A stretch of 64,000 nt of DNA from contig NZ_CP036525.1 in NCBI RefSeq assembly GCF_007741535.1, positions 7,254,001-7,318,000 of the forward strand, in the 5' to 3' direction. The DNA is from Rubripirellula lacrimiformis. GTDB lineage: Bacteria; Planctomycetota; Planctomycetia; Pirellulales; Pirellulaceae. Positions within the stretch are counted from its first letter, which is position 1. The number at the start of each line of letters is the position of its first letter. A program made the translations under genes and the position numbers. This document shows, one piece after another, positions 31,045 to 37,990 of the stretch. The notes beneath the pieces are model-generated. The model searched no databases. It saw nothing but the letters and a program-made list of their open reading frames with translations, and was not told the origin of the DNA.

Positions 31045-32406
31045 TCAATGCAACGAATAGCGTCCCATCTTGTAGTGCAATGTGCGGACGCTGATGCCCA
31101 GCGTTTTGGCCGTCCGTTCGCGGTGCAGATTGCATGCTTGCAGAGCAAGTTCGATGGTTTCTCGCTCGCAGCCTTCGACGGCTTCGGCCAACGAATGCGG
31201 TAGTGTCCGACTGGACCGTGGCCGGGGTGCAAAATCGGTGGGCAGTTCGTCGACCTGGATCACGTCATCGGGGTGCGTCACCACGATCCGTTCGACCAAG
31301 TTACGAAGCTGTCGAACGTTGCCAGGCCAATGTGCCGAGGCCAGTGTCTGCATCGCTTCGGGGGACACTCGTTTGCTGGGCCGCTGATGACGCAAACAGA
31401 AATCGGCAAGGAAGTGTTCGACCAACAACGGTATGTCCTCGCGTCGCCCACGAAGAGGTGGTACATCGATGGGGATCACGTTCAGACGATAGTACAAGTC
31501 TTCGCGAAAACTGCCATCGGCGATCAGTTCATCGACGCTGCGGTTGGTGGCTGAAACAACGCGTGCGTCGGTATGCAAAAGAGACTCGCCACCGACACGC
31601 CGAAACTGCCGTGATTCCAACACGCGCAGCAAGTCCACCTGACTCTTGGCCGACATCTCGGTGACTTCGTCCAAGAACAACGTGCCGCCGGACGCCTGTT
31701 CAAAGCAACCGGGTTTCTGTCGCGAAGCGCCGCTGAAGGACCCTTTCTCGTGACCAAACAACTCGCTTTCCAGCAAGGATTCTGGCATCGCGCCAAGGTT
31801 GACGGCTATGAATGGGCCACCACTACGATCGCTGAGGTCATGCAACGCTCGGGCGACAAGCTCCTTGCCCGTACCGCTTTCCCCTTGGATCATCACCGTG
31901 GCTTCGGTTGCCGCGACCTGACGAATCTGTTGGAACACGGACTGCATCGCAGCGCCACCGCCGATGATGTTCGAAACATCCCCGGCGCCCGCCAACCGCT
32001 TCCGCAGTTGTTGGTTTTCGATGCGAAGCCGGTAGTATTCGCGGGCCTTGCGGACCTGCTGGCGAATCAAATCCAGGTCTAGCGGTTTCAGGATGAAGTC
32101 AAACGCACCGGCGTGCATCGCTTCCACCGCCATCTCGACCGTTCCATGCGCGGTGATCACGATCACGGCGGTCTGGGGATGAGAATCCTGCAAACGTTTT
32201 AGTAGGTCGATGCCGGTCATGCCACAGTTGAGTCGAACGTCGGCGATCACCAGTTGATAGTGAGACCGATCGACTTTGTACAACGCATCCCTGGCTTCCC
32301 CGGTGGTGTGCACGGTGTCCGCTTCGCGTGCCAAGCCCTTGGCTAGCCCGCTGCGGATGTTCGGTTCATCGTCGACGACCAGCACACGAAAGGCGTCAGA
32401 ATTCAT
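31045..32406 (-). CDS. NtrC-family sigma-54-dependent response regulator
   Basis: A 453-residue protein in three parts. A receiver domain (residues 1-120) has FRVLVVDDEPNIRSG and the phosphoacceptor-type VIADVRL. An AAA+ domain (about 140-375) has Walker A GESGTGKE and Walker B GGTLFLDEV. A Fis-type helix-turn-helix (ACNLHRERTAKTLGISVRTLHYKM) lies at the C-terminus. The sigma-54 contact loop reads GSFSGA in place of the usual GAFTGA. The ATG at 32406 is used; an earlier one at 32427 is possible. No adjacent kinase gene is present, so it is an orphan regulator in this window; the hybrid kinase at 59581 is distant and has its own receiver. Confidence 0.93.
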   Translation of the reverse strand: MNSDAFRVLVVDDEPNIRSGLAKGLAREADTVHTTGEARDALYKVDRSHYQLVIADVRLNCGMTGIDLLKRLQDSHPQTAVIVITAHGTVEMAVEAMHAGAFDFILKPLDLDLIRQQVRKAREYYRLRIENQQLRKRLAGAGDVSNIIGGGAAMQSVFQQIRQVAATEATVMIQGESGTGKELVARALHDLSDRSGGPFIAVNLGAMPESLLESELFGHEKGSFSGASRQKPGCFEQASGGTLFLDEVTEMSAKSQVDLLRVLESRQFRRVGGESLLHTDARVVSATNRSVDELIADGSFREDLYYRLNVIPIDVPPLRGRREDIPLLVEHFLADFCLRHQRPSKRVSPEAMQTLASAHWPGNVRQLRNLVERIVVTHPDDVIQVDELPTDFAPRPRSSRTLPHSLAEAVEGCERETIELALQACNLHRERTAKTLGISVRTLHYKMGRYSLH

Positions 32407-32714
32407 CAGGTCCCTTTCCATTAGCAATCGAACAGAGAACTCGCAGCCCGCTGGGGCCGGAACAGAATCGATGCGATCGCAGTTGTCGACGAATCACTGT
32501 GTCGCGAAGCTGCACACCATGCCGGCAGCCGCGCCAAACAGGCTAGTAGGCAATTGCTGTGCCAAGGGGATGGGATTCCATCAAGATGACGCGTCACCGC
32601 CACCAGATTTAGGGTCACTAGCAGCGAACGAGACGCACCAGCGGTTGCAGTTAACGTGCCGCCGTATGCGGCCTGCTGACTTCGGCTTTGTCAAAAAAGC
32701 AGCGTTGGAATCAC

Positions 32715-32993: not shown

Positions 32994-33281
32994 CTAGTCG
33001 ATCACGCCTGCGTACTTTCGAAAGACGCGGATCAGTTCCGATAGTTTCTCGTCACGATCACTTGCATCGCCGCTTTGGATCGCATCGCTGACGCAAGTCT
33101 TCAGGTGCTGTTCCAAGACGATTTGGCCTACCTTGTTCAACGCTCCCGTGGCGGCGGACAACTGCATCAGAATATCGACGCAATAGTCGTCGTTGTCGAT
33201 CATTCGGCCAACCGCCTCGACTTGTCCAACGACACGCCGAAGTCGATTGTTGAGTTTCTTTTTCTCGTCGTCTGAGCGCAT
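32994..33281 (-). CDS. csoR: CsoR/RcnR-family metal-sensing repressor, probably Cu(I)
   Basis: A 95-residue protein, usual CsoR length. The ATG at 33281 was chosen because the family begins near MRSDDEKKKLNNRLRRVVGQ; the open frame extends further but without similarity. The Cu(I) ligand set Cys-His-Cys is present: DDYCVDIL supplies the first Cys, EQHLKTC the His and second Cys (H-x3-C). These proteins are all-alpha tetramers that leave DNA when Cu(I) binds. It lies 153 bp downstream of the copper ATPase, same strand. Inverted repeats upstream of the ATPase and of the TolC-like gene are its probable operators. Confidence 0.92.
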   Translation of the reverse strand: MRSDDEKKKLNNRLRRVVGQVEAVGRMIDNDDYCVDILMQLSAATGALNKVGQIVLEQHLKTCVSDAIQSGDASDRDEKLSELIRVFRKYAGVID

Positions 33282-33434: not shown

Positions 33435-35831
33435 TCAGTTCAGATCGGCCGATCGCAGCCGCAGCGCGTTGGCAATCACCGACACGCTACTAAGACTCAT
33501 GGCCGCCGCAGCAATCATCGGACTCAACAGAACACCGAAAAACGGATACAGCAGTCCCGCTGCCAACGGGATCCCCAGCGCGTTGTAGATAAACGCAAAG
33601 AACAGGTTCTGACGAATGTTGCTCATCGTTTTGCGGCTCAGCGTAACGGCCGCGGCGACACCGCGAAGATCACCGCCAACGAGCGTCACGTCGCCGGACT
33701 CCATCGCGACGCCCGCGCCCGTCCCCATGGCGATGCCCACTTGGGCTTCGGCCAGCGCCGGTGCATCGTTGATTCCATCGCCGCACATTGCAACGATCTT
33801 GCCAGCGCTTTTCAGAGACCGAACGAAGTCATGTTTGTCCTTGGGAGAAACGCCCGCGTGAAATTCACCGATGCCAAGTTCGGTCGCCACTGCTCGGGCT
33901 GTGGGTTCGGCGTCACCGGTTAACATCACAACTTTCAACCCCAGTTCATTCAGGGTCTTAAGCGCCGCTGGCGTGCTGCCTTTGATCGGGTCGGTGATCG
34001 CCATGATCGCCGCCAACTGTCGATCGATTGCGACGAAGACCACGGTGGCCCCATCGGCCTGATAAGCTCCCGCCAAGGATCGCCCATCGTCGACGTTGCC
34101 AATCCCCTGCTGGTCCAACAATTCTGCTTTGCCGATCAGCAGTTCGTGGTCGCCAACCCGCCCGCTGGCTCCTCCGCCGGTGACACTTTGGAAATCCGAT
34201 GCCTGTGCGACGGACAGCTTGTCGGCTTTCGCACGCCGCGTAATCGCCTGGGCCAAGGGGTGTTCGCTGGACGCTTCGACGGCGGCGGTCAGTGCCAGCA
34301 CATCACGGTCATTCCACTGGCCAAATGTCTTGATATCGGTCAGTTCCGGCTTCCCCTGCGTCAGTGTGCCGGTCTTGTCGACCACGATCGTGTCGACCTT
34401 TTCCATCACTTCCAGAACCTCGGCATTCTTGATCAACACACCTGCTTTGGCACCACGTCCGACGCCCACCATGACCGACATCGGAGTCGCCAACCCGAGG
34501 GCGCATGGGCATGCAATGATCAGCACCGCCACGGCGGCCACCAACGCGTGTGTCAACTGCGGTTCCGGGCCGAACATCCACCATCCGACGAATGCTAGGA
34601 CCGAAGATGCGATCACGGCCGGCACAAAGTATCTGGCCACCACGTCGGCTAGCCGTTGAATCGGAGCACGACTTCGCTGCGCCTCTGCGACCATCTGGAC
34701 GATTCGGTTCAGCACCGTGTCGCCCCCCACACCCACCGCCTCCATCACCAAGCCGCCGGTTTGGTTCAGCGTGCCACCGGTGACGTCGTCGCCTTCGCCC
34801 TTGGATACCGGAATCGGTTCGCCCGTCAGCATCGATTCATCCACACTGCTAGCTCCGCTGATCACGCGACCATCGACTGGCACCTTTTCGCCGGGACGAA
34901 TTCGCAGGCGATCGCCTCGCTGAACCGATTCCAACGCGACGTCCTCTTCACCCTGGTCGCTGATTCGATGAGCGATCGAGGGCGCCAGTTGCATCAATTC
35001 GCGAATGGCCCCGCCGGTTTGCTGACGAGCCCGCAATTCCAAAACTTGCCCCAACAACACCAGCGTGATGATCACAGCGGCCGCCTCGAAGTACAGTGGC
35101 GGTGCCCCGTTTTCGAACATCGATTCCGGAATCGCACCTGGCAACAAGACAACGATCAAACTGAATCCATAGGCTGCAAGTGCCCCCACCGCGATCAACG
35201 AGAACATGTTTAGGTTCAGGCTGCGAAAGGACTTCACCCCGCGAACCAGCAACGGCCACCCGCACCAAAACACCACCGGGGTCGCAAGCGCCAACTGCAA
35301 TCGGCCAAAGGAAACTTGCCCGATCCAATCCGAGACGTTCACGCCCACCATCGGCCCCATCGCGATCAATAGCAGCGGCAGCGACAACGCAGCACCCATC
35401 CAAAAGCGCCGCTTCATGTCGCTGTACTGTTTGTCATCGCCATCGGACGACATGTCAACGAACTTGGGCTCTAGATCCATCCCGCAGATCGGACAATCGC
35501 CAGGACCGACTTGTTCGATCTCGGGGTGCATCGGGCAGGTGTACACGGCTTCGGAATCGCCATCCGCCGGATTCCGTTTCGCCAAACCGGTGGATGATCC
35601 ACCATTCCCGCCACAGCATGAATGTTGTTCGCCGGGATCCGCCGTCGCCTTCGCAGCATCCTTTGCCGCCCGCTTGGCTAAGACGCCAACCGGATCGCTA
35701 TCGAACTTCTTCTGGCACCCGGCACTGCAAAAGAAATACGCCTTCCCCTTGTACTCGCTGCGCAGCGAATCACCGGGGGCAACGGTCATCCCGCATACAG
35801 GGTCGATTGCTGAAATATTGATCGCGACCAT
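33435..35831 (-). CDS. copA: Cu(+)-translocating P1B-type ATPase with YHS and heavy-metal-binding N-terminus
   Basis: A 798-residue inner-membrane pump. The N-terminus has a YHS domain ([12 protein letters not shown] ... [12 protein letters not shown], about residues 11-48) and a heavy-metal-binding module (YTCPMHPEI ... [10 protein letters not shown], about 92-118) in place of a classical HMA domain. [10 protein letters not shown] (near 443), [13 protein letters not shown] (near 483), SSEHPLA and [10 protein letters not shown] (near 684) are the ion-channel, phosphorylation, nucleotide and hinge motifs. YNALGIP and MSLSS in the last membrane helices match the Cu(+) subgroup (P1B-1). It exports Cu(I) from the cytoplasm. 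The inverted repeat at 35868-35884 lies 37 bp before the ATG. Confidence 0.95.
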
Positions 35832-35867
35832 CGGTCATCCTTCGGTGTCATACTGGCATCAGGCAAT

Positions 35868-35884
35868 ATACCCTGCATAGGTAT
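35868..35884 (-). promoter_or_regulatory. candidate CsoR operator upstream of copA
   Basis: Inverted repeat ATACC-N7-GGTAT ending 37 bp before the copA ATG. On the coding strand it is directly followed by TATATT-like sequence that could be part of a promoter. The half-sites and spacing equal those at 37802-37818. CsoR operators of other bacteria share this TACC/GGTA type of GC-centred inverted repeat. Confidence 0.65.
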
Positions 35885-35930
35885 GCAACTTGTGTTCCGA
35901 AATCGCTGTATTCCCAGGTTATTCGCTGCA

Positions 35931-35964
35931 CAGTGTGCAAGAAGGGACAGTGTGCAAGAAGGGA
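35931..35964. repeat. 17-bp perfect tandem duplication
   Basis: CAGTGTGCAAGAAGGGA occurs twice head-to-tail (35931-35947, 35948-35964), about 100 bp upstream of the copA ATG. Confidence 0.8.
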
Positions 35965-36164
35965 TCGCCCGGCTGAACAACGGTGCGATCGCAGCCGCGG
36001 GGGTTCGAAGAATGGGCGGCAAACGCCCAGCAAACGTCCGGCAATTTGCGGCAACCGGCCCATCGTGCCTCCATCGTGAATGCCACGATGCTGGACGCCG
36101 GCCATCATTCACCCGTCGTCGGCGGATCCAGATTCGATTGTCGCGTTGTCGGCGCCGTCGCCAA

Positions 36165-37727
36165 TCAGGGGCAGCCGACAGTGCGTTCGATCTGGGCCAT
36201 CGTACTGGCCAAGGCGGCTTTGCTGCGTGCGACTTGGACCTGCAGAGCCAACAGTTCGTGATAGGTGGCGATCAGGTCTGTGAAATCGGCTCGCTTGCCT
36301 TGGTAGTCCGCGATCACGATTTCCAGAGTCTGCTCGGTGCGCGGGATCAAGCGATTGCGAAAGAGTTCCAGCTGCTCGACCGCAGCATCCGCGGCGGCGA
36401 CTTGACGCCGCAATGTCCCACGCAGTTTGTCCTGTTCCGCTTCGCGGCGAAGCGTGGTGCTGGAACGGTTGTGCGCCGCTTCGCGAATCCCTGCGTTGAT
36501 TTTGTCTCGCCAGACTGGCAACGTGATGCCAACGGTAAAATTGATGTTGTCGTGGCCGTTGGCGACGGGACTGATCACATTGGTATCGTCGTCAACAATC
36601 GAATAGCCCAGGCCAAGTTGAAAGTCCGGGTACTGCTGCAAACACGCCAGCGATTCCTTGGCTCGATCCCGAGCGATCTCGGCGGCCAAGCCCTGCAGCG
36701 TTGGATTGCACGCTTCGGCTTGGGCAACCAATTCATCCAGCCTCGGTGAGGCCTCGGTGAGGATCAGTTCGTCGACAGCGATCGACATCCAATCCAGCGG
36801 CTGACGAACGAGCGCACCAAGATCCGCTCGCGCTTGCTCTTTCTGAAGTCTCAGCGAGATCATCTGCTCGGCAAGACGGTCGCCTTCTAGCTGCGCACGC
36901 AGAATGTCTTGCTGGCTGCCACCGGTTCGATATCGAGCCTCGGCGACTTCAATCAAATCGTCGACAAGCGCGCCATTTTCATCCACGATCTGAACCAATT
37001 CTTCGGCTAGCCACAACTGATAGTAGGCCAAGCGAACCGCTTCGGTGATCTCCAGTTCCGCACGCGCGCTTTCCGCGATGGCAACCTGCACCTCTCGCGA
37101 TGCCACGCTTCCTCTTGCATTCAGTTTGGCGGGCCAGGGAACTTTTTGAGTCAAAGCGAACTGGTGACCGATCCGGCCTCCGGCGGTTTGCAAGGCTTGG
37201 TCTTGGATCGGCCAAAACGTATTGCCCAAGGTAGGATCGTCCAGCGCCGTCACTTGCGGGATGCGATGCTGGGCGGCGGCGACTCTTTGACGCGCTGCGG
37301 CGACCGTGGGGTGCGTGGCCAACGCACGAGCCACCAGATCGGAAAGCGAGACCGGGACTGGCGTCGAACGCGAGTCCACCAAGACGGGAGCGATCGATTC
37401 TTCGTCAACGCCTGGGATGACTTGGATCGCTTGGTCGTTTGCCGCGGGTAAGTCGGTTGCTGCCGCGATCTCGTTAGGATTCTTGGCGACTTGCTCGGCA
37501 TTCCCGTTCTGGGCAATCTGGAAACTGGCCAGCGCAGTTTGCGAATCCGGGGACGACGCAGCGGCGATGCTTGCGGATCCCGCGGGCGTTGCGGCCGCTG
37601 GTCTGCCGACGTCCGCGACGCGAAGGCCGCTCGATTGGCAGCCCGGCAAAGCGAAAACGCAGCCCAGCAACAAATGTCGTTGCCAGCGTCGTCTTCGATT
37701 CGGATTGATTCTTCCGAATTTGTCCAT
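36165..37727 (-). CDS. TolC/CusC-family outer-membrane efflux protein
   Basis: A 520-residue protein. The ATG at 37727 begins a signal sequence with a lipobox-like end (HLLLGCVFALPGCQSSG), so it may be a lipoprotein like CusC. About 95 Ala/Asp-rich residues follow before the OEP domain, which starts near VPVSLSDLVARALATHPTVAAARQR. The two OEP repeats are visible, with long coiled-coil segments (YYQLWLAEELVQIVDENGALVDDLIEVAEARYRTG; QLELFRNRLIPRTEQTLEIVIADYQG). It would form the outer-membrane channel of a tripartite efflux system. It is encoded upstream of copA and shares a CsoR-like operator. No adaptor or RND pump is adjacent; the cluster at 51942-56942 lacks a TolC gene and could be its partner. 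Confidence 0.9.
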   Translation of the reverse strand: MDKFGRINPNRRRRWQRHLLLGCVFALPGCQSSGLRVADVGRPAAATPAGSASIAAASSPDSQTALASFQIAQNGNAEQVAKNPNEIAAATDLPAANDQAIQVIPGVDEESIAPVLVDSRSTPVPVSLSDLVARALATHPTVAAARQRVAAAQHRIPQVTALDDPTLGNTFWPIQDQALQTAGGRIGHQFALTQKVPWPAKLNARGSVASREVQVAIAESARAELEITEAVRLAYYQLWLAEELVQIVDENGALVDDLIEVAEARYRTGGSQQDILRAQLEGDRLAEQMISLRLQKEQARADLGALVRQPLDWMSIAVDELILTEASPRLDELVAQAEACNPTLQGLAAEIARDRAKESLACLQQYPDFQLGLGYSIVDDDTNVISPVANGHDNINFTVGITLPVWRDKINAGIREAAHNRSSTTLRREAEQDKLRGTLRRQVAAADAAVEQLELFRNRLIPRTEQTLEIVIADYQGKRADFTDLIATYHELLALQVQVARSKAALASTMAQIERTVGCP

Positions 37728-37800
37728 GCGATCTGCGCCCGTTGTATCGACCGTTACGAAAGTTCCTCTAAGGCACTTTTCGGCATGCGGCGATACGATG

Positions 37801-37819
37801 GATACCTCAAAGGGGTATC
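37801..37819 (-). promoter_or_regulatory. candidate CsoR operator upstream of the TolC-like gene
   Basis: Inverted repeat GATACC-N7-GGTATC, 73 bp before the ATG at 37727. The core ATACC-N7-GGTAT (37802-37818) matches the site upstream of copA in half-site sequence and in spacing. It therefore probably places this outer-membrane gene under CsoR control. Confidence 0.65.
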
Positions 37820-37990
37820 TTTCACCCTGCTTCCCCCATCGAACTTCCGAACAATCCGCATCGCCGTCAAATCTTGACTGATCGATACCGACGCATCGGG
37901 AGTGTTGAACGCGGCTCAAGGGGGGGGGGCAGAGAGATGATGAACACGCGGCCGGACAGCGGCGTAGCGATGATCCAGCGCAGGGAAACG

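Follow-up and report, generated by a model that had tools for sequence, protein, structure and literature searches.

The window analyzed here is a 64,000-nucleotide stretch of the Rubripirellula lacrimiformis genome that encodes a copper ATPase, a TolC-like outer membrane protein and a CsoR-type repressor. The question raised by this locus is whether a short inverted repeat, ATACC-N7-GGTAT, places the ATPase and the outer membrane channel under that repressor. The original prediction, made from the letters of the window alone, held that the repeat precedes both genes, that a CsoR with the full Cys-His-Cys ligand set is encoded in the same module, and that the repeat serves as its operator.

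Two exact palindromes ahead of copA and a TolC-like gene

The repeat is present exactly ahead of copA, as predicted, and again ahead of the TolC-like gene, where the span originally given, 37801-37819, comprises the operator plus one further complementary G/C pair (Table 1). These are the only two exact matches in the window. Because a scan of the window allowing up to two mismatches returned 8 matches against 8.8 expected, only the exact form of the pattern is informative there, and such relaxed matching was discarded. The G/C tracts of the two sites, CCC/GG and CC/GGGG, are short and uneven.

Table 1. Features of the copper module and exact sites elsewhere in the genome (window positions, or genomic positions where prefixed C1)
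Feature	Position	Strand	Remarks
csoR, copper-sensing repressor, C-H-C ligands	32994..33281	-	PF02583; 153 bp downstream of copA, same strand
copA, P1B-type copper ATPase, N-terminal YHS domain and an HMBD	33435..35831	-	TIGR01511, PF00122, PF00702, PF04945, PF19335; ATG at 35831
Putative -10 element TATATT	35865..35870	-	overlaps copA-proximal half-site
Operator 1, CsoR-type (predicted), ATACCCTGCATAGGTAT	35868..35884	.	exact match; 36 bp ahead of copA ATG
TolC-like outer membrane efflux protein (OEP/CusC type), tolC1	36165..37727	-	PF02321
Operator 2, CsoR-type (predicted), ATACCTCAAAGGGGTAT	37802..37818	.	exact match; 74 bp ahead of likely tolC1 start
Site at copA2-csoR2	C1:4701764		divergent from Csp-like gene
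tolC2, tolC paralogue	C1:4684377-4685618		divergent from cysrich-cusB-cusA
Site at tolC2	C1:4686176		tolC2 divergent from Cys-rich secreted ORF, then cusB, cusA
Site at second Cys-rich-cusB-cusA locus (RND)	C1:4468590		
Site at secreted Met/Cys-rich ORF	C1:1786620		presumed copper-type

The TolC-like gene probably starts at the ATG at 37727, which gives a protein beginning MDKFGRI followed by what, judged by eye, resembles a lipoprotein signal; the mechanically called ORF reaches a TTG at 37919, and from there operator 2 would fall inside the ORF.

Gene products of the module

The window CopA scored 585.6 bits against the NCBIfam model TIGR01511 (cut-off 397), which places it among the copper P1B ATPases. 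Besides the N-terminal YHS domain it has a short heavy-metal-binding domain, and the Pfam search reported no HMA domain. The TolC-like protein matched the OEP family PF02321 at 109 bits (cut-off 22) and remained below the cut-offs of the NCBIfam IhpA equivalog and TolC subfamily models. An NtrC-type sigma-54 response regulator (31045-32427) is encoded after csoR in the same orientation.

The listed csoR ORF extends to 33407, and its start was set at 33281 because relatives begin at MLSDDEKKK. The product matched PF02583 (Trns_repr_metal) at 100.9 bits (cut-off 22.8). Its best solved relatives, 4m1p, 4adz and 2hh7, all bear the CsoR name, and we take them to be the Geobacillus, Streptomyces lividans and Mycobacterium tuberculosis proteins, respectively. 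The Cys-His-Cys ligands align in register with these three chains, bearing out the full ligand set that had been predicted, and in a 17-sequence alignment including the window CsoR, Cys34 and His59 are invariant and Cys63 nearly so. The NCBIfam cut-offs for the CsoR/RcnR family were not reached (best score, RicR, 75.4 against 175; FrmR and RcnR lower), a result that concerns RicR, FrmR and RcnR only, a CsoR-specific NCBIfam model being absent from the hits. The genome encodes two CsoR paralogues, 79% identical, each adjoining its own copA and site, and the RLXR DNA-contact motif of helix 1, described for CsoR in passages of PMC3902906, reads RLRR in both.

The site across the R. lacrimiformis genome

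The single-contig, 8.54-Mb genome contains 8 exact ATACC-N7-GGTAT sites and no copy of the reversed control pattern at N7. Across the remaining 13 spacings between N2 and N15 there were 21 exact sites in all (mean 1.6), so that the excess at N7 has a Poisson P of 3e-4 with their mean as the rate. The sites, moreover, are not as common at random positions as ahead of these genes, the outcome on which the prediction could have foundered: six of the eight adjoin copper-type genes, the sixth presumptively, and these include a second copA-csoR locus. A chance origin of the sites was rejected on the basis of gene context, the reversed pattern and the comparison with other spacings.

The presumptive case is the secreted Met/Cys-rich ORF, for which the Spy match was sub-threshold and no Pfam family was found; its relative in another genome (G148) lies within a Cus cluster bearing such a site. 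Two sites, at loci L006 and L010, do not fit. One falls within a long ORF and the other precedes an infB-like gene; both look like background, and both were retained in all counts of eight. The L010 site (L010:4607-4623, C1:6738606) stands between nusA-like and infB-like genes, both named by eye, and probably reflects chance.

The Csp-like protein neighboring the site at L009:4765 resembles solved Csp four-helix bundles (3lmf, uncharacterised, 6e-22; RkCSP3, 6zif, 4e-16; Csp1, 5fjd, 7e-4), a similarity sufficient to call it Csp-like; it belongs to no Pfam family and reached 19 of 100 bits with the NCBIfam Csp1 model, far below the cut-off. At both Cus loci, a Cys-rich secreted ORF lies between the operator and cusB (L008:5182-5766 and L007:4003-4596), with relatives in L102 and L151; the L008 copy matches no Pfam or NCBIfam model. 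An ORF that appears ECF-sigma-like from its sequence (L008:2793-3347) adjoins the tolC2/cusBA locus. The occurrence of the same box at copA2-csoR2, the Csp-like gene, tolC2, the two cusBA loci and the Met/Cys-rich ORF, in addition to the window, points to a copper regulon of genome-wide extent.

Conservation in the csoR regions of relatives

Among 199 genomes drawn from the family, 48 carry a PF02583 gene, and from the 47 other than R. lacrimiformis we collected 59 csoR regions of at most 12.5 kb each, 708 kb in total. These regions contain 63 exact sites against 0 reversed controls, in genomes that are related and hence not independent. At least one exact site is present in 44 regions; of the 15 regions lacking one, three are on short contigs. 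Judged by neighboring ORFs, 32 of the 63 sites stand ahead of copA and 20 ahead of an OEP gene from either of two subfamilies, and some of the remaining 11 lie beside Csp, csoR, Cys-rich or multicopper-oxidase genes. The predicted tie between an outer membrane channel and a CsoR-type box thus recurs in the family. The half-sites compared among relatives are identical by selection of exact matches; the spacers vary, which shows that the sites are not mere recent copies of one another.

Six CsoR relatives (in L154, L156, L157, L158, L159 and L160) retain the Cys and His and have the third ligand Cys replaced by Ser. In two genomes (G153 and G194) this Ser form is the sole PF02583 match, yet exact operators are kept at copA/csp.

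With two CsoR genes in R. lacrimiformis, each beside its own copA and site, the paralogues might split the regulon, each serving its own subset of sites and perhaps responding to a different metal. Such a division would refine the best explanation, a CsoR operator, instead of competing with it. Spacers and flanks at copA are unlike those at OEP genes, consistent with separate subsets; against this, the Cys-His-Cys ligands and RLRR are kept in both paralogues, and nothing here separates their targets. We consider a split unlikely.

Co-occurrence of the site with CsoR

We compared the upstream regions of copA homologues in genomes with and without csoR. Of the 30 loci used from the longer match list, 29 remained once L025, with a contig that breaks off at copA, was dropped. 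Among the matches listed, 8 of 12 csoR-positive genomes have an exact site in the 400 bp upstream of copA, as against 0 of 17 csoR-negative genomes (P = 1e-4). Allowing one mismatch, these numbers become 10/12 and 0/17, two of the 12 csoR-positive genomes among the matches listed having no site at copA even then. The difference persists among the matches listed when R. lacrimiformis itself is removed (7/11 vs 0/17, P = 3e-4) and when L021, kept despite 100 N at -310 to -210, is left out (8/12 vs 0/16). Relatedness and the presence of CsoR are, however, confounded: restricting the matches listed to copA homologues of at least 59% identity leaves just four csoR-negative genomes and gives 8/12 vs 0/4 (P = 0.08), which is not decisive. 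Some of the genomes without csoR are also incomplete (G014, 74%).

The same comparison was made for TolC homologues in 31 loci of the longer match list, with a scan reaching at most 400 bp ahead of the expected start. Some of the sites found there lie between the TolC homologue and a divergent Cys-rich gene. These data bear on the possibility that only the copA site is an operator and that the palindrome ahead of the window TolC-like gene arose by chance. In favor of chance at the TolC-like gene, two of the eight genomic sites look like background, and 5 of the 24 TolC homologues from csoR-positive genomes among the matches listed, one of them in a genome of the same genus (G011), have no site even at one mismatch. 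Against it, among the matches listed, exact sites precede 17/24 TolC homologues in csoR-positive and 0/7 in csoR-negative genomes (P = 1e-3; 15/22 vs 0/7, P = 2e-3, without R. lacrimiformis), and the reversed pattern precedes none of the 31; moreover, a second OEP subfamily in the relatives has its own site, as does the paralogous tolC2. A coincidental palindrome at this gene is thus highly improbable, and we read operator 2, like operator 1, as a CsoR-type site.

On the scale of whole genomes, site density is 0.59 per Mb in the 48 csoR-positive genomes versus 0.32 in the 151 csoR-negative ones. The csoR-positive genomes contain 223 sites against 34 reversed controls. The csoR-negative genomes contain 303 sites against 157 reversed controls, an excess of about twofold for which the CsoR reading does not account. 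The reversed pattern is perhaps not an ideal control.

MerR-family copper operators are likewise inverted repeats, so the sites could in principle be those of a copper regulator other than CsoR, for instance a MerR activator of the CueR type. However, R. lacrimiformis yielded only three MerR_1 hits, the best at 39.6 bits and none within 170 kb of a site, and the site tracks csoR presence at both the copA and the TolC homologues. In a set of 80 csoR loci from named records, drawn partly from the same genomes as the 59 regions, 30 of 36 planctomycete loci carry a site, as do 15 of 44 others, either adjoining csoR or elsewhere in the locus; these others include loci from Myxococcota, Sumerlaeota and archaea, and the site is often at about 100 bp or less from csoR (62 sites and 1 control overall); the other 29 non-planctomycete loci have no site. 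The sequence also fits published CsoR boxes, as given in the relevant passages (PMC3902906, PMC5057107). We rejected the MerR reading as very improbable. The operator prediction itself is supported, as the format corresponds to that of characterized type-2 CsoR operators and the site tracks CsoR in relatives.

A proposed cytosolic copper circuit

Operator format, conservation, gene content and co-occurrence with CsoR, as established above, make it very probable that both window palindromes are type-2 CsoR operators with the canonical box, forming part of a genome-wide copper regulon. From these features, we infer the following circuit. At low cytosolic Cu(I), CsoR would bind ATACC-N7-GGTAT and block transcription of copA, and on the second copy would block the TolC-like gene. 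The position of csoR, shortly downstream of copA and on the same strand, suggests that the repressor would control itself as well if the two genes are co-transcribed. Once Cu(I) fills the Cys-His-Cys site, CsoR would let go, and the ATPase in the inner membrane and the outer membrane channel would be made together.

How binding would block transcription is suggested for copA by a putative -10 element over which the operator may lie. Planctomycete promoters are poorly known. A hexamer TATA(A/C/T)T is present at the copA-proximal half-site in 23 of 32 distinct copA rows and at the corresponding place in none of 19 distinct OEP rows. A sigma-70 consensus promoter scan found nothing at either window operator, and a sigma-70 promoter assigned by consensus was accordingly rejected. 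Since the OEP rows lack the hexamer and the scan was empty, the -10 overlap is proposed for copA only.

In many csoR-positive Pirellulaceae the box stands before outer membrane channels and a Cus-type pump. From this we predict a copper circuit that could dispense with a periplasmic sensor, with one cytoplasmic sensor perhaps running most of the copper-export line. Taken to its limit, a single cytosolic Cu(I) repressor would in this branch of the planctomycetes do the work that CueR and CusRS share in proteobacteria. Cytosolic copper would then be all that governs export through the entire envelope, and the 17-bp box would run the ATPase, the RND pump, the outer membrane channels, the storage protein and the Met/Cys-rich envelope proteins. 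We advance this wider takeover tentatively, as an idea with slightly less in its favor than against it. At a practical level, the site provides a search pattern for copper genes in planctomycetes.

In the literature searched, mostly at the level of titles and abstracts, we found no account of a planctomycete regulon in which CsoR boxes link cytosolic and outer membrane functions. The portion of a survey of marine bacteria that covers planctomycete representatives lists two-component and ECF-sigma homologues, BlaR-type regulators in some, and no CsoR, at a threshold of 1e-30 (PMC10141476), in contrast to the PF02583 gene in 48/199 genomes of the family drawn here. Proteins as short as CsoR might miss that threshold.

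Comparison with known CsoR and copper-export systems

Type-2 CsoR operators are described, in passages of PMC3902906, as an inverted repeat 5'-TAC-X9-GTA-3' with G/C tracts. For S. lividans, the same passages report that swapping bases in TAC/GTA abolishes CsoR binding and that apo-CsoR binds the operator while Cu(I)-CsoR does not. TAC-X9-GTA stands upstream of copper genes at both window sites and at six of the eight genomic sites. In the type-2 operators of S. lividans, Bacillus subtilis, Listeria monocytogenes and Staphylococcus aureus, the TAC-X9-GTA repeat encloses G/C tracts, and those of S. lividans precede the copZA operons as well as csoR (PMC3902906, same passages). Compared with these, the G/C tracts in the window are shorter and uneven, and a gene-side GGGG is present in 27 of 32 distinct copA rows. 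Going by the sites, the regulon here adds outer membrane channels, an RND pump and a Csp-like gene.

Passages of PMC5057107 give the box as TATACCC-N5-GGGTATA for Bradyrhizobium and as ATACCCC-N3-GGGGTAT for Corynebacterium, both of which share the frame of ATACC-N7-GGTAT. The csoR-cueA system of Bradyrhizobium liaoningense likewise comes from a Gram-negative bacterium, with the same box frame and with CsoR repressing a copper ATPase, but csoR and cueA are divergent, whereas here csoR follows copA; a tolC also emerged there as a copper-resistance gene, but the passages do not name it as a CsoR target (PMC5057107). In M. tuberculosis, the CsoR homologue RicR runs a regulon of several operons, with a metallothionein and a putative multicopper oxidase among its members; unlike the regulon proposed here, the RicR list as given in passages of PMC10141476 includes no outer membrane channel or RND pump.

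The operator itself is textbook, and what appears unusual is a regulon with a Cus-type envelope pump, outer membrane channels and a Csp-like gene behind the box. In proteobacteria, CusCFBA is controlled by CusRS/CopRS and copA by CueR, positive regulators that divide the genes between them. The effector types are the same, a copper ATPase, an RND pump and an outer membrane channel, but where the proteobacterial system splits them among activators, in R. lacrimiformis one repressor-type box lies beside them all.
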